Below are positions 3,802 through 16,182 of a stretch of DNA of 64,000 nucleotides, one piece after another. Position numbers and translations under genes: made by a program. The stretch is taken from positions 992,001-1,056,000 of the forward strand of contig NZ_VFNC01000002.1 in NCBI RefSeq assembly GCF_006715395.1, read 5' to 3'. Position 1 is the first letter of the stretch. The number at the start of each line of letters is the position of its first letter. The notes beneath the pieces are model-generated. The model was not told the DNA's origin. It searched no databases and saw only the letters and a program-made list of their open reading frames with translations. The DNA comes from Streptomyces sp. SLBN-31. GTDB taxonomy: Bacteria > Actinomycetota > Actinomycetes > Streptomycetales > Streptomycetaceae.

Positions 3802-3910
3802 CCCGCCCGCCTTGTCACCGCCGCACTAACCGCGCTCCCCGGGCACTCAACTCCCGCAAAACACAACCCTCAACCATCCCCCTCGCCGTGGCCTCGCTGC
3901 CATATTCGAA

Positions 3911-3932
3911 AGCCACTTCGGAGGTGGCTGTG
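3911..3932 (+). promoter_or_regulatory. Hairpin enclosing the ribosome binding site of the carboxyltransferase gene
   Basis: AGCCAC (3911-3916) and GTGGCT (3924-3929) are perfectly complementary around the 7-nt loop TTCGGAG. The Shine-Dalgarno sequence GGAGG (3920-3924) lies in the loop and closing base pair. The GTG start at 3930 follows directly after the stem. Such a structure could hide the start site of the first gene of the operon. It may also be chance. Confidence 0.45.
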
Positions 3933-5504
3933 ACGCGAGAGGCGACGACATCCCGGAACGGGGACACGGCGGCGCACGCCCCCGACGGCACCGCCGCGCA
4001 GCTCGCCCAACTGGAGAGCCGCCGCGTACGGGCGGTGGCCCCGGGCGGCGCGCGACGGCGGGGGCGACTCGGTGCGCGGGAGCGGATCGAACGGCTGCTG
4101 GACGCGGGCTCCTTCACCGAGACCGGTCTGTTCGTGCGGGCCCGCGGGGCCGGGGACGGTGCCCGGCGCCCGTACGGGGACGGGGTGGTCACCGGACACG
4201 GCACGGTCGACGGCCGTCCCGTCTGCGTGTTCGCCCAGGACTCCACGGTCTTCGGCGGCAGCATGGGCGAGGCCTTCGGCGAGAAGACGGTCGCCCTGAT
4301 GGACCTCGCCCTGAAGATCGGCTGCCCGGTCGTCGGGCTCAACGACGGCGGCGGGGCCCGCATCCAGGAGGGCGTCGCCTCCCTCGCCCTCTACGCCGAG
4401 CTGGTCCGCCGCAACGTCAGGGCCTCCGGGGTCATCCCGCAGATCTCCGTCGTCCTCGGCCCCTGCGCGGGAGGCGCCGCCTACTCCCCTGCCATCACCG
4501 ACCTCACGGTGATGGTGGACGGCGCCTCCCACATGTTCGTCACCGGCCCGGACGTCATCGAGGCCGTCACCGGCGAGCGCACCAGCGCCGAGGAGCTGGG
4601 CGGCGCCCGCACCAGCAACACCGTCAACGGCAACGCGCACTTCCTCGCCGCCGACGAGGAGGACGCGCTGGACACCGTGCGCGACCTGCTGTCGTACCTG
4701 CCCGCCAACAACCTCGAACGGCCCCCGGAGTACGCCCCCGGCTCGGCGCGCGACGGCGCCTGGCTGGACGAGGTCGTACCCGACCGGCTGGGACAGGCCT
4801 ACGACATGCGGGACATCCTGCACGCGGTCGTCGACGACGGCGAACTCCTGGAGGTCCAGGCCCTGTTCGCGCCCAACATCGTCTGCGCGCTGGCCCGGGT
4901 CGAGGGCCGTACCGTCGGCGTCGTCGCCAACCAGCCCCTGCACGCGGCCGGTGTGCTGGACATCGACGCCTCGGAGAAGGCGGCCCGCTTCGTACGGTTC
5001 TGCGACGCGTTCGGCATCCCGGTGCTGACCTTCGCCGACGTGCCGGGCTACCTCTCCGGCGTCCGCCAGGAGCAGGCGGGGATCATCCGCCGCGGCGCCA
5101 AACTCCTGTACGCGTACGCCGAAGCGACCGTCCCCAAGGTCACCGTCGTCGTCCGCAAGGCCTACGGCGGCGGATACGCGGTGATGGGCTCCAAGCACCT
5201 GGGTGCCGACGTCAACCTCGCCTGGCCCACGGCCCGTATCGCCGTGATGGGCGCCGAGGGCGCCGTCGGCATCCTGCACCGGCGCGAACTGGCCGCCGCG
5301 GCCGACCCGCAGGCGCTGCGGGCCCGGCTCGTCGCCGCGTACGAGAGCACCCACGGCACCCCGTACCTCGCCGCCGAGCGCGGCTACGTCGACGCGGTCA
5401 TCGCGCCGCACGAGACCCGCGATCAGGTGTGCCGCGCGCTCAGGACCCTGCGCGGCAAGCGGGCCCCGATGCCGGAGCGCCGGCACGGCAACATCCCCCT
5501 CTGA
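3930..5504 (+). CDS. Acyl-CoA carboxylase carboxyltransferase (beta) subunit, AccD4/PccB family
   Basis: This subunit transfers CO2 from biotin to an acyl-CoA, making a carboxyacyl-CoA extender unit. It needs a biotinylated alpha subunit, which is not in this window. The 524-residue length matches the family (515-540). The N-terminal CT domain has GLNDGGGARIQEGV and GPCAGGAAYSPAITD. The C-terminal domain has FADVPGYLSG, KAYGGGYAVMGSKHLGADVN and AVMGAEGAVGILHRRE. At the acyl-pocket position that is Asp in propionyl-CoA carboxylases and Ile in acetyl-accepting subunits, this protein has Ala417, so a different and perhaps larger substrate is possible. GTG 3930 follows GGAGG by 5 nt. It is the first gene of an operon with the acyl-AMP ligase and PKS, an arrangement like accD4 with fadD32 and pks13. 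Confidence 0.92.
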   Translation: MTREATTSRNGDTAAHAPDGTAAQLAQLESRRVRAVAPGGARRRGRLGARERIERLLDAGSFTETGLFVRARGAGDGARRPYGDGVVTGHGTVDGRPVCVFAQDSTVFGGSMGEAFGEKTVALMDLALKIGCPVVGLNDGGGARIQEGVASLALYAELVRRNVRASGVIPQISVVLGPCAGGAAYSPAITDLTVMVDGASHMFVTGPDVIEAVTGERTSAEELGGARTSNTVNGNAHFLAADEEDALDTVRDLLSYLPANNLERPPEYAPGSARDGAWLDEVVPDRLGQAYDMRDILHAVVDDGELLEVQALFAPNIVCALARVEGRTVGVVANQPLHAAGVLDIDASEKAARFVRFCDAFGIPVLTFADVPGYLSGVRQEQAGIIRRGAKLLYAYAEATVPKVTVVVRKAYGGGYAVMGSKHLGADVNLAWPTARIAVMGAEGAVGILHRRELAAAADPQALRARLVAAYESTHGTPYLAAERGYVDAVIAPHETRDQVCRALRTLRGKRAPMPERRHGNIPL

Positions 5505-5536
5505 ACCCACTGAACGCTCTGAACCCGCTGAACCCT
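5501..5536 (+). repeat. Four tandem 9-bp repeats at the carboxyltransferase stop codon
   Basis: CTGAACCCA, CTGAACGCT, CTGAACCCG and CTGAACCCT follow each other head to tail. The TGA stop at 5502-5504 is inside the first unit. They fill the start of the 103-bp gap before the acyl-AMP ligase gene. No role is evident; slipped-strand duplication is the simplest origin. Confidence 0.7.
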
Positions 5537-5607
5537 GCCCTCTCTGACCCCGCGCACCGCTCCCACCGCCGCGCCCCACACGCCGACCACGTCAGGAGCC
5601 ATGCCCG

Positions 5608-7329
5608 ATGGACAGCCGCCGCTCCCCGCTCGTGCCCGCCCACCGCAGCCTGCCGGAACTCGTGCGGCACTGGGCGCAGACCACCCCCGACCGCCGGGCG
5701 TTCACCTACGTCGACCATCCCGCGCCGGGCTCCCGAGGCGTCCACCGCACGCTGACCTGGCGGCGCCTGGACCTGCGGGTGCGCGCCCTGGCCGCCCGGC
5801 TCGCCGAGGACGCCGAACCGGGCGCCCGGGTCGCGCTGCTGTGTCCGCAGGGCACGGAGTACGTCACCGCCTTCCTCGCCGCGCTCACGGCCGGTCTGGT
5901 CGCGGTACCGCTGTATCCGCCGGACCTGCCCGGGCACGGCGACCGGCTCGCGGCGGTGCTCGCCGACGCGCGTCCGACGGTCGTGGTGACCACGAGCCAG
6001 GCCGCCGCCGCGGTGCGGGACTTCCGCGCGGACACCGCGGCCCGGGTCGTCGTCGCGGACCAGGTGCCCGACACGGCCGCGGACGGGTGGCAGCCGGTGC
6101 CGCCGCGGGAGTCGGCGGTCGCCTACCTGCAGTACACCTCCGGCTCCACCCGCACCCCGGCGGGCGTGGAGATCACCCATGCCAACGTCGTCGCCAACGC
6201 CTGCCAGGCCCTGACCGCCTACGCCGCCGACGCCCACCCGGTGACCTGCGTGGGCTGGCTGCCGCTCTACCACGACATGGGGCTGGTGCTGAGCGTGGCC
6301 GCCCCGGTGGTGCGCGGGCTGCTCTCGGTGCTGATGGACCCGGTGGCGTTCCTGCACGAGCCGGTGCGCTGGCTGCGGCTGCTGGGCGCGCACCCACGGG
6401 CGGTGAGCGCGGCACCCAACTTCGCCTACGACTACTGCGCCGCCGCCGTCACCGAGGCGCAGAAGGCGGATCTGCGGCTGGGTGACATCGCCGCGCTGAT
6501 CAACGGCAGCGAGCCGGTCCGCCCGGGCACCGCGGACCGCTTCCACGCCGCCTTCGCCGCCCAGGGGTTCGATCCGGCGACGCACTGCCCGTCGTACGGA
6601 CTGGCCGAGGCCACCGTCTTCGTCAGCGCCGCCCGGCCCGGCGAACCGCCGCACCGCTTCGCCCTCGACCGGGATGCCCTGGCGATCGGCAAGGCGCTGC
6701 CCGCCCGGCCCGACGACCCCAGGGCCGTGCTGCTGGCGGGCTGTGGCGCACCGGCGGGCCAGCGGGTGCGCATCACCGACCCGGTGACGGACGCCGTCCT
6801 GTCCGAGGGCGAGGTCGGCGAGATCCGGGTGCAGGGACCGAACGTCGGGCGCGGCTACTGGAACCAGGAGGAGCACACCCGGCGCGTCTTCGGTCCCGAC
6901 GGATGGCTGCGCACCGGAGACCTCGGGACCGTGCTGGAGGGGCAGTTGATCGTCACGGGCCGGCTGAAGGACCTCATCGTCGTCGACGGCCGCAACCACT
7001 ACCCGCAGGACGTGGAGGCCACCGCCCAGGAGGCGCACCCGGCCCTGCGGCCCGACCGGCTCGCCGCCTTCGGGGTTTCGGGCGCCTCGGGCGAGCGGGT
7101 GGTCGTCGTCGCCGAGCACGTGCGCGGCACGTCCCTGGCCGAGATCGACGTTCCTGCCCTCAAGGGTGCCGTGCGCGCGGCCGTGTCGGCCCGGCACGGG
7201 CTGCGGCTGGCCGATGTCGTCCTGGTACCGCCGGGCACCGTGCCGCGGACCTCCAGCGGCAAGGTGTCGCGGTCGCTGACCCGCGAGCGGTACCTGGCGG
7301 GCGCCTACCCGGCCGAGGGGGTGCGGTGA
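5608..7329 (+). CDS. Fatty-acyl-AMP ligase, FadD32-like
   Basis: This enzyme activates a free fatty acid with ATP to the acyl-adenylate and hands it to an ACP, here very likely the N-terminal ACP of the downstream PKS. The 573-residue protein shows the ANL-superfamily P-loop YLQYTSGSTRTPAGVEITHA, the core motif GWLPLYHDMGL, SAAPNFAYDY, ALINGSEPV, PSYGLAEATVFVS and GWLRTGDLG. The C-terminal RLKDLIVVDGRNHYPQDVE is the signature of FAALs rather than acyl-CoA ligases. PRTSSGKVSR supplies the catalytic lysine region. As remembered, M. tuberculosis FadD32 (637 aa) shares these motifs in the same order. ATG 5608 lies 9 nt after AGGAG; the ATG at 5601 is out of frame. The stop overlaps the PKS start (GTGA), so translation is coupled. 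Confidence 0.95.
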   Translation: MDSRRSPLVPAHRSLPELVRHWAQTTPDRRAFTYVDHPAPGSRGVHRTLTWRRLDLRVRALAARLAEDAEPGARVALLCPQGTEYVTAFLAALTAGLVAVPLYPPDLPGHGDRLAAVLADARPTVVVTTSQAAAAVRDFRADTAARVVVADQVPDTAADGWQPVPPRESAVAYLQYTSGSTRTPAGVEITHANVVANACQALTAYAADAHPVTCVGWLPLYHDMGLVLSVAAPVVRGLLSVLMDPVAFLHEPVRWLRLLGAHPRAVSAAPNFAYDYCAAAVTEAQKADLRLGDIAALINGSEPVRPGTADRFHAAFAAQGFDPATHCPSYGLAEATVFVSAARPGEPPHRFALDRDALAIGKALPARPDDPRAVLLAGCGAPAGQRVRITDPVTDAVLSEGEVGEIRVQGPNVGRGYWNQEEHTRRVFGPDGWLRTGDLGTVLEGQLIVTGRLKDLIVVDGRNHYPQDVEATAQEAHPALRPDRLAAFGVSGASGERVVVVAEHVRGTSLAEIDVPALKGAVRAAVSARHGLRLADVVLVPPGTVPRTSSGKVSRSLTRERYLAGAYPAEGVR

Positions 7330-10300
7330 GCGCCGTCGACGAGCGGGCGGTGCGCCGGCTGATCGCCCGGCGGGTGGCCGAGTGGGGCGGTACGGCGGCC
7401 GAACAGGCCCCGATGGACCGGCCGTTGGCGGATCTCGGCATGTCCTCGCGGGACGCGGTGACCCTGGCCGGGGAGCTGTCCGCCCTGGCCGGACGTGAGC
7501 TGCCCGCGACCCTGGTGTGGGAGGCACCCACCGGGGAGGCGCTGGTGGAGCGCCTGTGCGGCCCGCCGGAAGCCGCCACCGCGGACGACGGCCGGCCGGG
7601 GATCTCCGGCGGACACGGGACGGCACGACAGCTGCCGTCGGGCGAACCCGCTCCGACCGAGGGGGCGTTGGCCTCCGGCGAACCCGTGGCGGTCATCGGC
7701 GTCGGGTGCCGGCTGCCCGGCGGGGTGCACGGACCGGACGACTACTGGCGGCTGCTGGGCGAGGGTGTCGACGCGGTCCGTCGGGTGCCCGAGGACCGGT
7801 GGCGCGACTTCACCCCCTTTCCGCCCGCCGACGCGCTCCCCTACGGCGGCTACCTGGACGACATCGCGGGGTTCGACGCGGACTTCTTCCGCATCACCCC
7901 GCGCGAGGCCGCCGTGATGGACCCGCAGCAGCGGATCCTGCTGGAGGTCGTCCACGAGACGCTCGATCACGCCGCCGTCCCGGCCGCCTCCCTGGCGGGC
8001 ACCAACACCGGTGTGTTCGTGGGCGTTTCGGCGCCGGAGTACGGCGGACTCACCGGCGCCGACCCGGGCGCGGTCGACCCGTGGGCCCCGGCGGGCGCCG
8101 CGCTCAGTGTCACCGCGGGCCGGCTGGCCTACGTCCTGGACACCCGGGGGCCCAGCATGGCCGTCGACACCGCCTGCTCCTCGTCCCTGGTCGCTGTGCA
8201 CCACGCGTGTGTGAGTCTGCGGACGGGCGAGAGCGACACGGCGATCGCCGCCGGCGTCAACCTGCTGCTCTCCCCCACCGTCACCGTCGCGTTCCGGCGG
8301 GCGGGGGCCCTGGCCCCGGACGGGCGCTGCAAGCCGTTCTCCGCGGCGGCGGACGGCATCGGGCGTGGCGAGGGCTGCGCCGCCGTACTGCTGAAACGGC
8401 TGTCCGACGCCGAACGGGACGGCGACCGTGTGCTGGCCGTCATCCGGGCCACGGCCGTCAACTCCGACGGCCGCTCCAACGGCCTGCTGGCTCCCAACCC
8501 GGCGGCCCAGAAAGCCCTGTTGACCACCGCGTACGCGCGGGCCGGTGTCGTGCCGGCGCAAGTGGACTATGTGGAGGCGCACGGCACCGGCACCCCGCTC
8601 GGCGATCCGATCGAGGCGGGCGCGCTCGGCGCGGTCCTGGGCACGGACCGCGACCCCGACCAGCCGCTGCTGCTGGGCTCGGTCAAGGGCAACCTCGGTC
8701 ACCTGGAGTCGGCCGCGGGCATCGCCGGGCTGGTCAAGACCGTCCTCGCCCTGCACCACGACATCGTCCCGCCGTCCCTGCACTGCGCGGCCGGCAGCGC
8801 CGTGGACGGCACGCGGCTGCGGGTGGTGACCGAGCCCGAGCCCTGGCCGCGCTACGGCGGCACGGCCGTGGCGGGCGTCTCGGGGTTCGGCTTCGGTGGC
8901 ACCAACGCCCATGCGGTGCTGGAGGAATGGCGGCCCGCCCCGACTCCGTCCCCCGAGAATCCGGCCGCCCGGCTGCACTTGCTGTCCGACGTCGACGCGG
9001 AACGGGTCCGGGACACCGCGTCCCGGCTCGCCGACTGGCTCCGCACCCCCGCGGGCGCCGGCGCGCACCCGGCCGACGTCGCGCGCACGCTCGCGGGGCG
9101 GACCGGCCGGGGTCCTGTGCGGGCCGCGGTCGTCGCCCGTGACCGCGCCGAACTCATCGAAGCCCTGGGCGCGTTGGGTTCGGGGCGGGCGCACGACGGG
9201 GTGGTGACCGAGGACCGGGATCGTGTCGGGCGCGGGCCGGTGTGGGTCTTCTCCGGGCACGGAAGCCAGTGGGCCGGCATGGGCCGCCGACTGCTCGCCG
9301 AGGAGCCGGCGTTCGCGGCCGCGGTGGAGAAGGCGGATGCCCAACTTGCCGCCGAGTGCGGGTTCTCGCTCTACGACCACCTCGCCTCCGGCGGTGGGAT
9401 GGAGCTCCTGGAGGTCGCCCAGCCCGTGCTGTTCGGGATCCAGGTGGCCCTCGCCGAACTGTGGCGCGCCCACGGTGTCGAGCCCGCCGCCGTCATCGGC
9501 CACTCCGTGGGCGAGGTCGCCGCCGCGGTCTGCTCGGGAGCCCTGGACCTGTCGGACGGGGCGCGGATCGTCGCCGTACGGGCGCGGCTGCTCAGCCGGC
9601 TGCGGGGCGGCTCGATGGCCGTGGTCGACCTCGACGAGGCCGAAGTCGACGCGCTGCCACGGGAGTTCACCGGTGTCCATATCGCCGTGCACTCCTCACC
9701 CGGACAGCAGGTCGTCACCGGGGAGGAGGCGGCGGTGGCCCGCCTCGTACGACGGCTCCAGGACCGGGGGCGCGCGGTCAAGGCGATGAAGGTCGTCGGC
9801 GCCGGGCACTCCCCCCAAGTCGACCCTCTGCTGCCCGAGTTGGCCCATTCGCTCGTCGACGTCCAGGGCAGGCGGCCTCGGGTGCGGGTCTACTCCACCG
9901 TCCTCGACGACCCGCGCGGGGAGAGCGTCTTCGACGCCGCCCACTGGGTCGCGAACCTGCGGCGGCCGGTCCGTCTGGACCGGGCCGTCGCGGCCGCCGC
10001 GGCCGACGGTCACACCGCCTTCGTGGAGATCTCGCCCCACCCGGTTCTGCTGCGTGCCCTCACCGGGACCGCGCCGGGCGCCCTGTCCCTCGGCACGCTC
10101 CGCCGGGACGCCGACGACTCGGCCGCCTTCCTCGGCCGGTTGGGCGTGCTGTACGCGGCGGGCCTGCGGCTGCCGCTGCCGGCCGGGCGCGTCACCGACC
10201 TGCCCGTGCCGCGCTGGCGGCACGCGCGGCACTGGTGGACGGACGGGCGGACTGCGCCCCCGGCGACGCCGAAGAAGGAACCGGTGGAGGACGAGGACTC

Positions 10301-11330
10301 CGTCACCGCCCGCCTGCGTCACCACCTCGCGGCCGTCACCGGCCATGTGCCGGGCCGTCTCACCGCCGCCACCCCGCTGGCCGACCTCGGACTGGACTCG
10401 TTGATGGCCGTCCGCGTCCGCACCGCGCTGGAGCGCGAGTTCCGGACCGAACTGCCGCTGCGCGACCTGATGGGCGCTGCCCGGCTCGGCGACCTCGCCG
10501 ACCGCCTCCGACATGCCCTCCCCGCCGGTGACTCCGGCCCGCTGCGGACCTTGAACGCCACCGGTTCCGGGACCCCGCTCTTCCTGGTCCACGCCGCGGG
10601 CGGGACGACCGACGTCTACCGGACGCTCGCCGAACGCCTCGGCGACGACCGGCCGGTGTACGGGCTGAACCGGATCGAGGAAGCCGGAACGGTCACCGAG
10701 AAGGCCCGTCGTTACGCCCGGGCCATCACGGCCGCCCACCCGAACGGGCCCTGCCTGCTCGGCGGTTGGTCCTTCGGCGGGTTCGTCGCGCAGGAGACGG
10801 CGCGGCAACTTACGGACGCCGGGCGCGAGGTGGAGCTGGTGGTGCTCATCGACTCCGTACGGCCCCACCCCCGGGCCGACCGGCTCCGCGCCCACCTCAC
10901 GGGCTTCGCGGCGCACGTGGCGGACGTATACGGGGTGCGGCTGGAGCTGCCGTACGACGAGCTCGTCGCGATGGACGACGACGGCGAGCGCATCGACACC
11001 GTGCTAGGGGCCCTGCGCGAGGCCGCCGAGGTGCCGGCCGCCGCGCTGGAGCACCAGCGCGCCTCCTACCTGGACCTGAGGATCGGCGAGGCACACCGGC
11101 CACGGCGCTACGACGGGCCGGTGGTGCTGTACCGGGCGACCGAGCCCGCGCCGCACACGGTGCGCGACCCGGCCTACGAACGCGACGACGAGGCGCTCGG
11201 CTGGGACGAGGTGTGTCCGCGGCTGACCGTCGTACCGGTCGCGGGGCACCATCTGTCGCTCCTCGACCCGCCCCACGTCGACGAGCTCGCCGCACGGCTG
11301 CGGCGGGAGTTCGCCGAGCAGGTCCGCTGA
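7326..11330 (+). CDS. Single-module type I polyketide synthase ACP-KS-AT-ACP-TE, Pks13-like
   Basis: The predicted role is to condense an activated fatty acid with a carboxyacyl extender and release an alpha-alkyl beta-keto acid or ester. Domains in the 1,334-residue protein: N-terminal ACP (residues 1-80, carrier Ser41 in LADLGMSSRDAV); KS (about 119-545, Cys284 in DTACSS, plus VEAHGTGTPLGDP and NLGHLES); AT (about 637-930, Ser727 in GHSVGE, His828 in GAGHSPQ); second ACP (Ser1025 in DLGLDSLMAV); TE (about 1081-1334, Ser1149 in GWSFGG). There is no KR, DH, ER or MT. Order and content equal those of mycobacterial Pks13 (about 1,730 aa), but with shorter linkers. The AT lacks the HAFH and YASH motifs of malonyl and methylmalonyl selectivity. 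GTG 7326 overlaps the ligase stop. Confidence 0.95.
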   Translation: MSAVDERAVRRLIARRVAEWGGTAAEQAPMDRPLADLGMSSRDAVTLAGELSALAGRELPATLVWEAPTGEALVERLCGPPEAATADDGRPGISGGHGTARQLPSGEPAPTEGALASGEPVAVIGVGCRLPGGVHGPDDYWRLLGEGVDAVRRVPEDRWRDFTPFPPADALPYGGYLDDIAGFDADFFRITPREAAVMDPQQRILLEVVHETLDHAAVPAASLAGTNTGVFVGVSAPEYGGLTGADPGAVDPWAPAGAALSVTAGRLAYVLDTRGPSMAVDTACSSSLVAVHHACVSLRTGESDTAIAAGVNLLLSPTVTVAFRRAGALAPDGRCKPFSAAADGIGRGEGCAAVLLKRLSDAERDGDRVLAVIRATAVNSDGRSNGLLAPNPAAQKALLTTAYARAGVVPAQVDYVEAHGTGTPLGDPIEAGALGAVLGTDRDPDQPLLLGSVKGNLGHLESAAGIAGLVKTVLALHHDIVPPSLHCAAGSAVDGTRLRVVTEPEPWPRYGGTAVAGVSGFGFGGTNAHAVLEEWRPAPTPSPENPAARLHLLSDVDAERVRDTASRLADWLRTPAGAGAHPADVARTLAGRTGRGPVRAAVVARDRAELIEALGALGSGRAHDGVVTEDRDRVGRGPVWVFSGHGSQWAGMGRRLLAEEPAFAAAVEKADAQLAAECGFSLYDHLASGGGMELLEVAQPVLFGIQVALAELWRAHGVEPAAVIGHSVGEVAAAVCSGALDLSDGARIVAVRARLLSRLRGGSMAVVDLDEAEVDALPREFTGVHIAVHSSPGQQVVTGEEAAVARLVRRLQDRGRAVKAMKVVGAGHSPQVDPLLPELAHSLVDVQGRRPRVRVYSTVLDDPRGESVFDAAHWVANLRRPVRLDRAVAAAAADGHTAFVEISPHPVLLRALTGTAPGALSLGTLRRDADDSAAFLGRLGVLYAAGLRLPLPAGRVTDLPVPRWRHARHWWTDGRTAPPATPKKEPVEDEDSVTARLRHHLAAVTGHVPGRLTAATPLADLGLDSLMAVRVRTALEREFRTELPLRDLMGAARLGDLADRLRHALPAGDSGPLRTLNATGSGTPLFLVHAAGGTTDVYRTLAERLGDDRPVYGLNRIEEAGTVTEKARRYARAITAAHPNGPCLLGGWSFGGFVAQETARQLTDAGREVELVVLIDSVRPHPRADRLRAHLTGFAAHVADVYGVRLELPYDELVAMDDDGERIDTVLGALREAAEVPAAALEHQRASYLDLRIGEAHRPRRYDGPVVLYRATEPAPHTVRDPAYERDDEALGWDEVCPRLTVVPVAGHHLSLLDPPHVDELAARLRREFAEQVR

Positions 11331-11352
11331 ACCGGAGACCCGAGGAGCCGCC

Positions 11353-12294
11353 ATGTCCCACCCGCACCGCACCGCCGCAGTGTCCCGACGCACCGTCGCC
11401 AAGGCGGCGGCCACCGGACTGGCCGCGTTCTTCGGCGCCGCGACCGGCACCGCGCGGGCCGCCACCCGTCTGACGGCCCGCACCTTCGATGTGTCGCTCC
11501 CGTCCGCCGCGCTGGGCCGCAGCGCGCCCGTACGGCTGATCCTGCCGTCGGGCTTCGACACCCAGCCCGGGCGGACGTACCCGGTGCTGTACCTGCTGCA
11601 CGGCGCCCACGACGACTACACGTCCTGGACGAGGGAGACGGACATCGAGGCCTTCACCGAGGGCCGGAACCTGATCGTGGCCATGCCGGACGCGGGGCCC
11701 ACGGGCATTCCCACGGCCTGGCGGGGCGGCCCGGACTACGAGACCTTCCAGCTCTCGGAGGTGCCGGCGCTGCTCGCCCGCGACTACCGGGCCTCCGCGG
11801 TGCGGGCCGTCGCCGGCGTCTCCACGGGCGGCTACGGCGCCATGGCCCACGCGGCCCGCCACCCGGGCGCGTTCACGGCCGCGGCCTCCTACAGCGGCAT
11901 CCTCGACACCACCTTCCCCGGCGTGCCGACGCTCGTCGACGCGATCGTGGCCCGCGAGAACCTGGCGCCCCTGTCCCTGTGGGGCAACCCCGTGCTGGAC
12001 CTGCTCACCTGGCAGAACTTCAACCCCAGGGCCCGCGCGCAGGGACTGCGCGGCACGCCCCTTTACGTCTCCGGCGGCAGCGGTGTGCTGGGCGGCATCG
12101 GCGACTGGCTGCCCGAGGCGCTGGAGAGCGCCCTGTGGCCGTCGGCGCACAGCTTCACCGACGCCCTCGACCGGCTCGGCATCGCCGTGACGAAACACTT
12201 CTACTCGGGCGGCGGACACAGCTGGCAGTACTGGAAGCAGGAGTTCACCGCGTCGTGGCCGATGCTCGCCCGTGCGCTGGGGGTGCCGGAGTGA
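11353..12294 (+). CDS. Tat-exported esterase/acyltransferase of the antigen 85 (esterase D) family
   Basis: A predicted extracellular serine acyltransferase or esterase of 313 residues. The N-terminus SRRTVAKAAATGLAAFFGAA is a twin-arginine signal with an Ala-rich cleavage region ending near ARA (residue 36). The alpha/beta-hydrolase core starts at YPVLYLLHGAHDDYTSW. The nucleophile is Ser157 in GVSTGGYGAM and the catalytic His289 lies in GHSWQYWKQEF, close to the THSWEYW block of mycobacterial Ag85 mycolyltransferases. It lies 22 bp after the PKS in the same operon, so it may transfer the PKS product to an acceptor outside the cell. Family members also include simple esterases; transferase activity is inference. 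Confidence 0.88.
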   Translation: MSHPHRTAAVSRRTVAKAAATGLAAFFGAATGTARAATRLTARTFDVSLPSAALGRSAPVRLILPSGFDTQPGRTYPVLYLLHGAHDDYTSWTRETDIEAFTEGRNLIVAMPDAGPTGIPTAWRGGPDYETFQLSEVPALLARDYRASAVRAVAGVSTGGYGAMAHAARHPGAFTAAASYSGILDTTFPGVPTLVDAIVARENLAPLSLWGNPVLDLLTWQNFNPRARAQGLRGTPLYVSGGSGVLGGIGDWLPEALESALWPSAHSFTDALDRLGIAVTKHFYSGGGHSWQYWKQEFTASWPMLARALGVPE

Positions 12295-12416
12295 TGTCGG
12301 TGCCGTCGGGGCACGGAACGGAGCGCAGGGGGCGTCCGTCCAACACGGGACATGCCCCTCGTCCCACGGGCAACAGCGCGCGGGTGAGCCTGTTCCGGAT
12401 GAAAGGAGTGACCTCG

Positions 12417-13667
12417 ATGGCCGTCCCCACCCCCCACGAGGGGCCGGCCGGGCGGGCGGCCCCACTGCTCCCGCCCGATCTGGCCGAGCTGCTGCGTTCC
12501 CGGCTCGAGGCGGTCGCCGACGAGGTGGAGGAGGAGGTCCGCAGACAGGTCCCCGAGTACGCGGGCCCGGCCGACGGTGCCTATACGAGGAATCTGCGGG
12601 CCGGCGTGGTGCAGGCCCTCACCCTGTTCGTCGACCACATCGCCGACCCGCGCGGCCCGGGCGACGCGATCGCGGCGACGTACTACGAACTCGGGCGCGG
12701 TGAGGCCCTGGTGGGCCGCGGCCTGGACGCGCTGCAGTCGGCGCTGCGGATCGGCGGGCTGCACGCCTGGCGGCTGATGGGCCGGACCGTGGAGGAGCTC
12801 GGGCTGGACTCCCAGGTGGTGGCCACGCTCGGTGAACTCGCCTTCCGGACCGTGCACGAGGTCGCCGAGGCGGCCGCCGAGGGGTACGCGGACGCGCGGC
12901 TGCGCAGCACCGACGAGCTGGAGCGGCGGCGCCGGCGGCTGCTGGACCTGCTGCTGGGCGACGGGCCGGTGCCGGTGGAGGCCGTGCACGAACTGGCGCA
13001 CGGGGCACGGTGGTCGGTGCCGCGGTACGTGGCCGTCGTCGCGCTCGCCGCCGCCGGCGAGCGGCGCGAGGACGACCGGCCGCTCGCGGCGGCGGGAGCG
13101 CTCGTGGACATGGGGTCGCGGCCGCCGCGGATGCTGGTACCCGATCCCGACGGCACCGGCCGCTTCGCCGGGCGTGCCTTCGCGCTGGCGCTGCGCGGCC
13201 GTCCGGCGGCGATCGGGCCGACGGTGCCGCTCGCCGAGGCCGCGCGGTCGCTGCGCTGGGCGTCGCTGGCGCTGGGGCTGATGGGGCGGGGCATTCTGCC
13301 CCGGCAGGGTGTCGTGCGGTGCGACGAGCACCTGTCGACCCTGCTGCTGCACAGCGACGAACCGCTGCTCGTCCAGCTCCGGGCGCGCGCCCTGGCACCG
13401 CTGGAGCGGGTCTCCGAGGGCCAGCGCGCCCGCCTCGCCGAGACGCTGCTGGCCTGGCTGCTCAGCGGCAGCAACGTCCCCGACGTCGCCACCCGGCTGC
13501 ACGTCCACCCGCAGACGGTCCGCTATCGGATGCGGCAACTGGAGAAGGTCTTCGGCGACGCTCTGCACGACCCGGACGCCCGCCTGGAGATGATTCTCGC
13601 GCTGCGTGCCGAGGAGACCCGTCTGCGGGCAACAAAATCAGGGGAATTTCTGAATTCCCCGCAATAA
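12417..13667 (+). CDS. PucR/CdaR-type transcriptional regulator
   Basis: A 416-residue cytosolic DNA-binding protein. The N-terminal half (about 20-165) is helical, containing ELLRSRLEAVADEVEEEVRRQVPEY, and resembles the RsbRD-like sensor region of this group. A GGDEF-like/CdaR middle region follows. The C-terminal HTH of the PucR type (about 352-400) reads NVPDVATRLHVHPQTVRYRMRQLEKVFG. ATG 12417 has AAAGGAG 8 nt upstream. It stands 122 bp behind the esterase gene on the same strand, so it may be the operon's last gene or its local regulator. No ligand is evident. Confidence 0.85.
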   Translation: MAVPTPHEGPAGRAAPLLPPDLAELLRSRLEAVADEVEEEVRRQVPEYAGPADGAYTRNLRAGVVQALTLFVDHIADPRGPGDAIAATYYELGRGEALVGRGLDALQSALRIGGLHAWRLMGRTVEELGLDSQVVATLGELAFRTVHEVAEAAAEGYADARLRSTDELERRRRRLLDLLLGDGPVPVEAVHELAHGARWSVPRYVAVVALAAAGERREDDRPLAAAGALVDMGSRPPRMLVPDPDGTGRFAGRAFALALRGRPAAIGPTVPLAEAARSLRWASLALGLMGRGILPRQGVVRCDEHLSTLLLHSDEPLLVQLRARALAPLERVSEGQRARLAETLLAWLLSGSNVPDVATRLHVHPQTVRYRMRQLEKVFGDALHDPDARLEMILALRAEETRLRATKSGEFLNSPQ

Positions 13668-13748
13668 CACCCCGTGACGGAACGCGAATACGTTCGGGGG
13701 GTCCTTTTCCCCAAGGCGCGCAACGCGCCCGACCCGCAAAGGATCCCC

Positions 13749-14390
13749 ATGCGTATCCGCTTGTGCCTCGCCGCGCTCTCCCTGGTCGGCGGGGCCGGAC
13801 TCACCACCCTCTCGGCGCCCGCCGCAACGGCCGCCACCTGCTCGGACATCGACGTCGTCGCGGCCCGCGGCACGTTCGAGCCCGGCACGCTGGGCGCGAT
13901 CGTCGGCGACCCCGTGTATTCCGCGCTGCAGCAGAAACTGACCGGCCGTAGCCTCTCCGGCTACAAGGTGAACTACCCGGCCGACCTTTCTCTCACGTCG
14001 GCCGCGCAGGGAAACGCGGACCTCGTGAACCACGTCAACAGTCAGGCGGCGGCCTGCCCCAACCAGCGTTTCATTCTCGTCGGCTATTCGCAGGGCGCGA
14101 ATGTGGTCGACAATTCCATCGGCATCAGCAGCGACGGCGCGGTCGTGGGCAGCCCCATCGTGGCCACGCTTCCCGCCGCCGTGGCGCCGAGAGTCGCGGC
14201 GGTGCTGCTGTTCGGCAACCCGATCCGGGCCCTGGGCAAGAGCGTCACCGGCCCCTACCAGAGCCGCACCGTCGACTTCTGCGCCAAGGGCGACCCGATC
14301 TGCGAGAACGGCGGCGGTGACGTCCTGGCCCACCTCGGCTACACCGCCAATGCGGGCGCGGCGGCCGACTTCGCGGCGACCAGGCTCTGA
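13749..14390 (+). CDS. Secreted cutinase family serine esterase
   Basis: A small extracellular hydrolase of ester bonds (cutin, short-chain esters or lipids), 213 residues. It has a Sec signal peptide (MRIRLCLAALSLVGGAGLTTLSAPAATAA, cleavage about residue 30). The mature core starts CSDIDVVAARGTFEPG, a cutinase hallmark. The nucleophile is Ser114 in VGYSQGANV, and DFCAKGDPICENGG carries the catalytic Asp and a cysteine pair; HLGY supplies the His. ATG 13749 follows AAAGGA. The same family includes Rv3802c, which sits next to fadD32 and pks13 in mycobacteria. However, cutinases are also common in Streptomyces (SCO7513 near the same GAPDH, from memory), so its proximity to the PKS operon may be coincidental. 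Confidence 0.92.
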   Translation: MRIRLCLAALSLVGGAGLTTLSAPAATAATCSDIDVVAARGTFEPGTLGAIVGDPVYSALQQKLTGRSLSGYKVNYPADLSLTSAAQGNADLVNHVNSQAAACPNQRFILVGYSQGANVVDNSIGISSDGAVVGSPIVATLPAAVAPRVAAVLLFGNPIRALGKSVTGPYQSRTVDFCAKGDPICENGGGDVLAHLGYTANAGAAADFAATRL

Positions 14391-14463: not shown

Positions 14464-16182
14464 TCACTGGGGGTTTTCGGCGAAGCGTGCGAGGTTGATG
14501 GAGACGGGCTCGGGCCGTCCGTCGTTCTGCACGGGCGCGGCGGTGAGCACGTCCAGGTGCTGGTAGCCGTCGGCGATGACGGGGTGCAGGTCGGCGGGGA
14601 CGCGGCCGGCCAGCAGTCCGTCGCCCGCGAGCACGGTGAGCGTCGGATCGGCGGTCAGCCCGTCCGGGTGCACGACGAGTTGCCTCACCTGGGGCGAGGC
14701 GGCCAGTTCGATGTCGGTGACCAGCTTCGTCGGGAAGTACTGCTCGGTGAAGTCCAGCGGTTGCCGGGCCAGGCTGCGCGCCAACTCCTGGATGTCGGTG
14801 ACCTCTTCACCGGCGCCGGTGAACGGCGTGCCGTCGGAGGAACGGTAGCCGGGGTCGTCCGGGGCGCCGACACGGTCGTAATCGCGCCATGTGTAGAGCG
14901 GGCCGTGCGGCTCGGCCGGGATGGCCTTGTACCGGGTACCGAACAGTCCTGGCTGCGGTGAACCTCCGTTGGCGGCTGGGAAGTTCTTGTCGGTGACGGG
15001 TCCGCCGTCGAAGAAGCCGACGCTGCTCTGCAGGAAGGCCAGGGGGACGGAGTTGTCGTCCAGCAGGGCTCCGAGCACGGCCTGGTGGGTGAGCCGGAAG
15101 TCCTTCACCGAGGGCGATCCGGTGAGGAAGGTGGTGGGGTCCCTGGAGAACAGGAAGCGGTTGGTCGCCTCGATGTTGGTGTTGGAGGGCAGGTAGGCCG
15201 GCAGGTCGGACTCGCCGCCGGGATTCTGCAGGGCGCCCACCCCGGCGATGGCCAGCAGGGTCATGGTCTCGGGGTTGAGCAGAACCGGCGCGGACAGCGA
15301 GCGCGGGAGGACGCCGCTGTCCAGGCCGGCCTGGACAGCGGCGTAGCCGAGGCCCACGTCGGGCAGGTCGGTGTCGTCGGGGATGCTGCCGCTCAGGTCG
15401 GCGAGTGAGGTGGAGACGGTGGTGTCGAGGGCGAAGTAGCCGGCGCACTGGTTGTATCCGGCGTCGGCGGTGGTGGCGGGGTCGCCGTCGAAGTCGGCGG
15501 TCGCGAAGTAGCCGGTGACGACACCGCCGAGCGAGTGCCCGCCGCACAGCAGTTTCCGCTTGCGCAGGTTCTGGTCGGGCAGTTCGGCGGTGAGCAGGTC
15601 GTACTGGTCGCGCACGGTCTGCCGGATGCCGAGTTTCGCCATCCAGCCCAGTTGTCCGTTGTCGGCGAACCCGGCGAAGGTGCGGCCGTTCACCTGCTTG
15701 CCGCGGTAGTAGTAGTCGACGGCGGTGTGCTGGTCGCCGGAGTCGACGCCGGTGTGGTCCTCCAGGCAGTTGGAGCGCCGGTCCAGCGCCCAGAACTCGA
15801 TGTGCTCGCCCTGCTCGGCGGCGCTGGTCACGGTGTTGCGGGCGACGCTGTCGAAGGCTCCGGCGCCCTCCAGGATGCCCGGCTGGGCGACCAGGACGCG
15901 GTCGGCGTCGGCCGAGGCCGCCGGCCCCGCGGAGGAGCGGTAGCGCAGGTACGACAGCCAGTCGCACGCCGCCGGACGCGCCCCGAAGGACGCCGGCAGC
16001 GGCACCTTGACCCGCACCACGGACTCGGTGACCCCGGCCGCGGTGCCCACCGGCGTCTCGGTGCGCGCGCCGCCCGCGTGGGCGTTTGGGGCGGCCGCGG
16101 TGAGCGCCCCGGTGGTCAGCAGCGCCGCGAGCGCTGCCGTGCGCAGGGCCTTCGGGGTTCTTCTGCTACGACTCGTGTCCAT
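14464..16182 (-). CDS. Secreted alpha/beta hydrolase (lipase-like)
   Basis: A 572-residue exported protein. The N-terminus has basic residues (SRSRRTPKALR), a hydrophobic core and an AHA-type cleavage site near residue 36. The lipase box LLCGGHSLGGVVTGYFA holds the likely nucleophile, Ser217. The region YLRYRSSAG, FWALDRRSNCLEDHTG and a C-terminal HPVIADGYQHLDVLTAAP supply the rest of the core, the last including the probable His. The substrate is unknown. Convergent with the cutinase across a shared terminator, it adds a third secreted serine hydrolase next to the PKS operon. It could be part of the same extracellular lipid chemistry or simply neighbouring. Confidence 0.8.
   Translation of the reverse strand: MDTSRSRRTPKALRTAALAALLTTGALTAAAPNAHAGGARTETPVGTAAGVTESVVRVKVPLPASFGARPAACDWLSYLRYRSSAGPAASADADRVLVAQPGILEGAGAFDSVARNTVTSAAEQGEHIEFWALDRRSNCLEDHTGVDSGDQHTAVDYYYRGKQVNGRTFAGFADNGQLGWMAKLGIRQTVRDQYDLLTAELPDQNLRKRKLLCGGHSLGGVVTGYFATADFDGDPATTADAGYNQCAGYFALDTTVSTSLADLSGSIPDDTDLPDVGLGYAAVQAGLDSGVLPRSLSAPVLLNPETMTLLAIAGVGALQNPGGESDLPAYLPSNTNIEATNRFLFSRDPTTFLTGSPSVKDFRLTHQAVLGALLDDNSVPLAFLQSSVGFFDGGPVTDKNFPAANGGSPQPGLFGTRYKAIPAEPHGPLYTWRDYDRVGAPDDPGYRSSDGTPFTGAGEEVTDIQELARSLARQPLDFTEQYFPTKLVTDIELAASPQVRQLVVHPDGLTADPTLTVLAGDGLLAGRVPADLHPVIADGYQHLDVLTAAPVQNDGRPEPVSINLARFAENPQ

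Follow-up and report, generated by a model that had tools for sequence, protein, structure and literature searches.

The envelope of the Mycobacteriales is defined by mycolic acids. The question addressed here is what a gene block with the protein families of a mycolate locus does in a Streptomyces. The block lies in a stretch of 64,000 nucleotides (the window; positions 992,001 to 1,056,000 of contig NZ_VFNC01000002.1 of Streptomyces sp. SLBN-31), which belongs to a genome of 9.47 Mb on three contigs. An earlier sequence-only reading had described it as a mycolate-type condensation cluster with an exported enzyme of the antigen 85 (Ag85) family. Our analyses indicate that the block probably encodes a sister of the system by which mycolic acids are condensed and transferred, but for a lipid other than mycolate, in which a Claisen-type synthase would make alpha-alkyl beta-oxo (perhaps later beta-hydroxy) fatty acids and an extracytoplasmic acyltransferase would act on them.

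Four co-directional genes, encoding AccD, a fatty acyl-AMP ligase (FAAL), a polyketide synthase (PKS) and a PF00756 esterase, occupy positions 3930-12294 of the forward strand and form one operon, after which pucR and a cutinase gene follow on the same strand. The accD gene (3930-5504, +) starts with a GTG directly preceded by ggaggtgg and encodes an acyl-CoA carboxylase carboxyltransferase subunit of 524 aa (PF01039, 607.9 bits) with a predicted medium- or long-chain acyl-CoA substrate. The FadD32-like FAAL (5608-7329, +; 573 aa), assigned from NCBIfam FAAL models and its tree, is predicted to charge the N-terminal acyl carrier protein (ACP) of the PKS with a fatty acid. The 5' end of the PKS gene (7326-11330, +) overlaps the FAAL stop codon. 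Its product is a single module of 1334 aa with the order ACP, ketosynthase (KS), acyltransferase (AT), ACP and thioesterase (TE), which Pfam, the Pks13 model, PDB comparisons and the tree identified as Pks13-like without the stretch between the AT and the C-terminal ACP. Alignment to Pks13 chains and relatives placed the N-terminal ACP, with its motif GMSSRDAV, at 7326-7580 (+). According to Pfam and a motif table, the AT domain (9240-10163, +) has catalytic Ser727 and the motif GAGH at 9798-9809 (residues 825-828). The C-terminal ACP and thioesterase/acyltransferase domain (10311-11330, +) was placed by Pfam and retains the GWSFGG, Asp and His motifs when aligned with relatives. The last gene of the operon (11353-12294, +) encodes an Ag85/PS1-like enzyme of the alpha/beta hydrolase fold with a twin-arginine signal (313 aa; PF00756, 99.9 bits), a predicted acyltransferase. 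A PucR-type transcriptional regulator (12417-13667, +; PF13556, 65.7 bits) precedes the secreted cutinase (13749-14390, or from a GTG at 13674, +; PF01083, 141.9 bits vs a Pfam cut-off of 25.9). Pfam and the reading frames confirmed the gene content and positions that had been proposed: the domains found were carboxyl transferase, AMP-binding, KS, AT, PP-binding (two stretches), TE, esterase and cutinase, and no ketoreductase (KR) was listed by Pfam for the PKS.

Conservation within the genus was analysed in 41 Streptomyces genomes, with 15 candidates scored per genome, so that the weaker counts are lower bounds, and in a Streptomyces ortholog set of 29 distinct loci (30 rows, as L047 and L061 represent the same contig, which was counted once for synteny and twice in the AccD and AT residue tables). 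The PKS was present in six of the 41 genomes, namely that of the window and five others at 78-82% identity over the matched part. In addition, at least one genome had a 56% relative and at least three (the window's own genome again, G026 and G008) had a long form adjoining a FAAL. The organism-named PKS homologs among the 120 listed of 7475 were from Streptomyces. While the contig stopped at the PKS in four of the 29 loci, all of the remaining 25, window included, carried accD, FAAL, PKS, esterase, pucR and cutinase. In L044, L060, L068 and L117, pucR was listed ahead of the esterase because its open frame extended upstream; match positions put the esterase first, which gives a single gene order. 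Ratios of dN/dS lay between 0.145 and 0.345 in every comparison for all seven genes (five or six orthologs per gene). The gene block is conserved beyond chance and is a real cassette. Of these loci, only the nearest relative, L050, also has the flanking GAPDH and permease genes. Judged by titles and abstract starts, no publication on this cassette was found among the literature matches listed, and a search for a Pks13-like protein in Streptomyces gave no literature matches.

The cutinase follows the same distribution. It was the sole PF01083 match in its own genome. Across the genus sample, 18 genomes had a match at E<=0.001 and 13 had one above the Pfam cut-off; five of these 13 cutinases were full-length (139-145 bits) and all five stood beside the cassette, while the other eight were partial (26-41 bits) and located elsewhere. 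In G001, the remaining genome with the cassette, the assembly is a draft of 79% completeness, and the contig that carries the cassette stops behind the PKS. A full-length cutinase thus occurred in 5/6 cassette genomes vs 0/35 others, a Fisher probability of about 8e-6 for events that are not independent, because the five share one ancestral block.

We then asked how each enzyme relates to its counterpart at mycolate loci. The nearest solved structure of the PKS was Pks13 (824.5 bits), followed by MAS (665.8) and DEBS (619.5), and the protein has the Pks13 domain order together with a Pks13-type N-terminal ACP motif (GMSSRDAV vs GLSSRDAV in Pks13 chains). In a PKS tree of 44 rows, built by a quick method with 12 rows taken as ordinary PKSs, the six mycolate-locus PKSs formed one clade (100) and the window PKS with six sampled orthologs formed a separate clade (100), whose nearest kin were the G014 relative and four Amycolatopsis short forms (98). 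Both the PDB ranking and this tree disfavour an ordinary PKS of the kinds compared. The residues between the AT and the C-terminal matches numbered 9 in the window PKS vs 300-315 in five mycolate-locus PKSs (the frame of the sixth is split). According to the excerpted text on M. tuberculosis Pks13, this stretch consists of a pseudo-dehydratase and an inactive ACP (PMC11649247), and it is not found in the window PKS. Long relatives of about 2200 aa, two of which were examined, carry a KR and a weak dehydratase (DH) match between the AT and the C-terminal ACP. From these architectures we infer a series of losses, from a reducing module through Pks13 to a pruned Streptomyces form, in a direction that the trees leave unproven.

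The nearest solved chains of the FAAL were of FAAL type, namely a chain named acyl-CoA synthase (422 bits), FadD32 (399) and FadD23 (380), and PF23024 scored above its cut-off. In the FAAL tree, the FadD32-locus clade (100/100) excluded the window protein and was joined with 22 non-mycolate FAALs, 28 rows together, at 96/93. The tree position that would have refuted the original proposal, a place with an ordinary Streptomyces family of known product, was not seen in this sampling: the PKS and the ligase stand beside Pks13 and FadD32 and separate from the ordinary PKSs and acyl ligases in the trees. Four Mycolicibacterium/Mycobacterium loci with a FAAL and a PKS (L086, L092, L111 and L115), whose ATs read VASH, made up a separate group in both trees.

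The esterase scored best in the PDB with PS1 (131.8 bits), ahead of a general esterase (81.4), feruloyl and tributyrin esterases (68-70), Cmt1 (66) and Ag85A (62.5). In its tree, cassette esterases and mycolyltransferases (32 rows) were separated with a support of 100/98 from the other four PF00756 proteins that the genome encodes, and 11 mycolyltransferase-locus rows formed one clade (98/96) with the window esterase outside it. The Ser, Glu and His columns, which have a role in Ag85, were invariant in 34 aligned rows, and a loose twin-arginine pattern was present in 24 of 25 orthologous esterases. The window esterase thus carries an export signal and the Ser-Glu-His triad of the family alignment; an acyltransferase whose acceptor differs from that of mycolyltransferases fits best, a plain esterase being the alternative. 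The AccD tree, whose sampling covered neither AccD5 nor other carboxylases, joined the mycolate-locus AccDs with those of Parafrankia and Streptomyces (97/98) and left the PccB-like and AccB-like paralogs from the same genome outside; the mycolate genes were one clade and the Streptomyces genes stood beside it, not inside. For all four trees the program warned of long branches, mostly of outgroup rows.

The PKS, FAAL and esterase were correlated in their pairwise distances (r 0.91-0.98); in 2000 permutations for each pair, the observed correlation was never reached. Shared phylogeny accounts for part of it. The simplest reading of these data would be that the cassette was inherited as a unit and that the mycolate locus is one branch of it. 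Because the trees make the window enzymes a sister lineage, the names Pks13, FadD32 and Ag85 are analogies here. The original proposal is thus supported in part. Its core idea of mycolate-type condensation with an exported acyltransferase held up in the nearest structure and the trees, and the pocket residues and CCR-type genes described below, the cutinase and the occurrence of related cassettes in several actinobacterial families add to it; the correction is that the enzymes belong to sister clades of Pks13, FadD32 and Ag85. The new lipid class or exported signal that it also raised would be a possibility.

Residues in the AT and in the AccD pocket point to a bulky alkylmalonyl extender. In the excerpts of a study of MccB, a hexanoyl-CoA carboxylase, Gly161 replaces a Phe called universal among carboxylases for acyl-CoAs of up to four carbons, and an Ala replaces the Asp of PccB (PMC5187497). 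The window AccD has Val159 opposite the PccB Phe in the PDB alignment, and at the positions linked to specificity in MccB and PccB every one of the 30 ortholog rows has V159 and A417. Val159 is the likely counterpart of MccB Gly161, as judged from the 5inf alignment, whose start is offset by two, and from a nearby Tyr. Among the paralogs of the same genome, the PccB-like protein (L142; EIF, GGAYD) has Phe and Asp and two AccB-like proteins have Phe and Ile, while mycolate-locus AccDs carry Gly, Ser or Ala at the first position and Ala at the second. Having neither the Phe nor the Asp or Ile, the window AccD matches the pattern of longer-acyl-CoA carboxylases (MccB/AccD4 type). The Val/Ala pocket in 30 rows and the AccD tree disfavour a housekeeping PccB.

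The AT motif was GAGH in 29 of the 30 ortholog rows, the remaining row being cut off. Six Corynebacterium/Hoyosellaceae Pks13 proteins had GAGH (five) or GSGH (one), and seven other short relatives had VAGH (six) or AAGH (one). The motif of the four other mycobacterial FAAL-PKSs was VASH, and 31 ordinary PKSs had VAFH (24), VASH (four) or others (three). Because HAFH marks malonyl ATs and YASH methylmalonyl ATs in the excerpted sources (PMC6164871, PMC10646177), GAGH argues against ordinary extenders and not for one substrate. Genes of the crotonyl-CoA carboxylase/reductase (CCR) type stand beside the related cassettes of G014 and G026 (L045:10903-12219; L046:15010-16353); the G026 protein scored 550 bits on TIGR01751 (cut-off 378.55) and the G014 protein clusters with it. 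CCR is the other known source of alkylmalonyl-CoA.

Taken together, the cassette would work as follows. AccD, with a generic biotin carboxylase subunit, would convert a medium- or long-chain acyl-CoA to alkylmalonyl-CoA, as its pocket residues suggest. The FAAL would form the acyl-AMP of a second fatty acid and load it on the N-terminal ACP of the PKS, in keeping with its family and the conserved ACP motif. The AT would then charge the C-terminal ACP with the alkylmalonyl unit, and the KS would join this unit to the fatty acyl chain in an alpha-alkyl beta-oxo acyl thioester, which the TE may release or transfer; a reductase encoded elsewhere may yield the beta-hydroxy acid. Outside the membrane, the Tat-exported Ag85-like enzyme would transfer the acyl group to an acceptor, and the cutinase and a lipase-like neighbour may hydrolyse or remodel the product, while PucR is a possible regulator of the operon. 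Protein anatomy gives good support to the condensation steps; support for the transfer step is moderate. The sequence-only reading had also drawn on the lack of a ketoreductase in the operon. The observation stands for the PKS, where Pfam listed no KR; as a clue to the product it is weak evidence, because in Rhodococcus the annotated mycolate locus likewise has no ketoreductase and contains just an F420-dependent oxidoreductase. The gene for CmrA (Rv2509) lies apart from pks13. This protein is described as the mycolate reductase in the excerpts of PMC6194230.

Several observations weigh against this reconstruction. The PKS reached 1176.5 bits on the Pks13 equivalog NF040607, below the curated cut-off of 2100; the FAAL reached 518.5 bits on the FadD32 equivalog NF038339 (cut-off 975), and its best NCBIfam models, which are fatty acyl-AMP ligases, were also below their cut-offs (558.3 of 922 and 541.4 of 775). 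The LDGLRARDD-type loop of mycolyltransferases reads LHG--AHDD in the window esterase, and the cutinase had 25% identity (28.5 bits) to the cutinase of the Lolliginicoccus mycolate locus. In the PKS tree, the branch that unites mycolate Pks13 with the non-mycolate group has a support of 93 and is not starred, and L096, one of the 12 rows taken as ordinary PKSs, lands on its inner side. AT motifs were mixed among 12 long relatives, with seven motifs (GAGH three, AAGH one, VAAH four, and GAAH, AAAH, TSAH and VASH one each), and GASH occurred in the mycobacterial chain 9f48 and in Rhodococcus and Tsukamurella Pks13; therefore, the first Gly of GAGH is common to these proteins and the third residue is not. 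GAGH had no assigned substrate in the literature consulted on AT motifs, and for a VAGH domain the excerpted text of one source called a precise prediction impossible (PMC10646177). That the 20 kb around the G014 and G026 cassettes, with their CCR-type genes, showed no AccD carries less weight for G014, where the contig stops 0.8 kb past the FAAL and an AccD further out is possible. Finally, the genome has 22 MMPL matches and none near the block.

In agreement with these scores, a true Pks13 was rejected (below the NF040607 cut-off, outside the mycolate clade and without the AT-to-C-terminal ACP stretch), as were a true FadD32 (score under the cut-off, outside the FadD32-locus clade) and a true Ag85 or mycolyltransferase (loop not kept, outside the mycolyltransferase clade). 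The cutinase was likewise not accepted as an ortholog of the mycolate-locus cutinase; because their identity is only 25%, the likeness is at the level of the family.

Three other explanations of the cassette were considered. It could be a specialised-metabolite cluster, the PKS making a small diffusible alpha-alkyl beta-keto acid or a decarboxylated ketone, lactone or pyrone, with secreted hydrolases that are unrelated or act on plant or microbial polymers. The patchy distribution (6/41 genomes) would suit this idea, as would the position of some loci in chromosome arms (8.7 of 9.3 Mb in S. coeruleorubidus, 9.14 of 9.41 Mb in G009), an EryCIII-like glycosyltransferase in the second cassette of the same genome (L040) with members of the same cluster in four Amycolatopsis loci, and the fact that cutinase substrates include plant cutin. 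However, an esterase is also found near the PKS in Pseudonocardiaceae, Nonomuraea and Corynebacterium, the esterase groups with mycolyltransferases and not with the other PF00756 proteins of its genome, and the full-length cutinase co-occurs with the cassette, so that we regard a specialised-metabolite cluster as unlikely.

It is still less probable that AccD is an ordinary propionyl-CoA carboxylase and that, with methylmalonyl-CoA as extender, the products are simple alpha-methyl beta-keto acids. The PDB scores of AccD, which were highest for an acyl-CoA carboxylase beta subunit (9j0c, 701 bits) and PccB (692) and lower for AccD5 (605), could be read in this way, but the Phe/Asp of the PccB-like paralog contrasts with the Val/Ala of the cassette AccD in all 30 rows, methylmalonyl-type ATs have xASH and not GAGH, and two relatives have CCR-type genes without an AccD in the surrounding 20 kb (the G014 contig ending near the FAAL). 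A recently acquired true mycolate locus, producing corynomycolate-like acids bound to trehalose, would account for the presence of all five mycolate-locus protein families, and yet it is very improbable indeed: identities to mycolate-locus proteins were 33-44% for PKS, FAAL and esterase and 50-57% for AccD, all of them fell outside the mycolate clades, the AT is nearly contiguous with the C-terminal part of the PKS, and the mycolyltransferase loop, which presumably contacts trehalose in Ag85, is not kept. A sister system that condenses and transfers a lipid other than mycolate is the explanation we retain as probable.

The region upstream of accD carries conserved elements. In the promoter region, the element TTGTCAC-N4-G-N-A-N2-AA (3812-3829, +) was defined by columns conserved in 90% or more of the 19 upstream regions aligned; a slightly stricter form, TTGTCACNNNNGNACNAA, had one match in the window with up to two mismatches allowed. 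A second element, CTGCCATATTCG (3897-3908, +), lies directly 5' of the accD ribosome binding site and was kept to the same extent in the 19 regions. It has one exact copy in the window, the sole other match having two mismatches. A weaker third conserved element lies between the two, and most of the surrounding sequence was not kept in these orthologous regions. The 3812-3829 and 3897-3908 elements are candidate operator or promoter sites. They are not common to five relatives outside the Streptomyces orthologs, where matches had two to three mismatches and, where inspected, lay at unrelated places. An inverted repeat, GGGGAATT-TCTG-AATTCCCC, was seen at 13641-13660 beside the pucR stop codon and is absent from some orthologs.

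Downstream of the cutinase, on the other strand, lies a gene for a secreted alpha/beta-hydrolase-like protein of 572 aa with the motif GGHSLGG (14464-16182, -). This lipase-like neighbour was present in 23 of the 24 loci with a long enough contig; it is missing in L050, and the L051 contig was too short. The extent of the block had been described correctly as far as it went, but it was incomplete, as the conserved block also has this gene. The protein had no Pfam or NCBIfam match. Of 8000 scored candidates 1040 matched it; the organism-named ones among the 120 matches listed were from Streptomyces, and relatives among the matches listed were named hypothetical, alpha/beta hydrolase or fungal lipase-like.

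If the cassette acts in this way, its implications reach beyond one genome. We tentatively propose, as a possibility that falls somewhat short of probable, that Streptomyces and several other non-mycolate actinobacteria make a surface-bound or secreted corynomycolate-like lipid (an alpha-alkyl beta-oxo or beta-hydroxy acid) by means of a cassette of common ancestry with the mycolate locus. In that case mycolate chemistry would predate the mycomembrane and be more widespread than it, the mycomembrane being one specialised application; a sister cassette outside the Mycobacteriales bears on where the mycolate pathway came from. According to the excerpts of one report, mycolic-acid bacteria alter the metabolism of Streptomyces, and inducing activity was lost in a pks13 mutant of C. 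glutamicum (PMC12159101). A related lipid of their own may exist in some Streptomyces, which bears on actinomycete signalling. The enzymes would also supply condensing modules that a FAAL loads and that use alkylmalonyl units, and Pks13 and Ag85 could be compared with them as non-mycolyl counterparts.

In the mycolate locus of the Mycobacteriales (esterase, cutinase, fadD32, pks13 and acyl-CoA carboxylase beta), the same five protein families stand side by side as in the window, where esterase, cutinase, FAAL, PKS and AccD are encoded together. Annotated Rhodococcus and Tsukamurella loci contain one or more esterases, DUF732, one or more cutinases, fadD32, pks13 and the acyl-CoA carboxylase, with other genes interspersed, and the Lolliginicoccus gene between the esterase and fadD32 is a PF01083 protein whose cluster has members in five mycolate loci; the M. 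tuberculosis locus we take to include fbp, Rv3802c and accD4. The two systems are alike in the N-terminal ACP, KS and TE motifs, the Ala of the AccD pocket, the Ser/Glu/His esterase and the cutinase. They differ in that the window has accD first, esterase and cutinase last and pucR inserted, and in that its PKS has 1334 aa vs about 1600-1730 aa, its proteins form sister clades and the mycolyltransferase loop is not kept.

Related cassettes were found in several actinobacterial families, the named-genome scan covering the best 80 of 255 loci. The long FAAL-PKS cassettes of Pseudonocardiaceae and of the SLBN-31 genome itself resemble the window in that a FAAL, an ACP-KS-AT...ACP-TE enzyme and a PF00756 esterase occur together, and differ in a PKS of about 2200 aa with a KR and a weak DH match. 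The second cassette of the genome (G000:C2:3403295-3409933, corresponding to L040:7272-13988, -) has a PKS of 2238 aa with a KR, the EryCIII-like glycosyltransferase and an MFS-type gene, and its PKS has a GC content at third codon positions of 0.77, below that of the PKS and FAAL frames in the window (0.88-0.95). Members of an MMPL cluster, of which the one tested is an MMPL transporter, were found in two Corynebacterium mycolate loci and in seven Pseudonocardiaceae loci (L073, L074, L076, L078, L082, L084 and L085, at about 1.7-6.5 kb). Export and glycosylation are associated with the cassette elsewhere and are not linked to it in the window. Pseudonocardiaceae have arabinogalactan and lack mycolic acids, according to the excerpts of PMC6194230. 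In Nonomuraea gerenzanensis (L152:6632-13448), a related esterase adjoins a PKS with a frame of 1892 aa, and no FAAL match was found within 21 kb.

The supply of the extender has its own parallel in the MccB of stambomycin synthesis in S. ambofaciens and in CCR pathways, which also provide alkylmalonyl-CoA for a PKS; there, Gly161 and Ala of MccB correspond to Val159 and Ala417 of AccD (PMC5187497). MccB serves a macrolide assembly line, whereas the extender of the window would feed a one-module condensing enzyme with a secreted acyltransferase.

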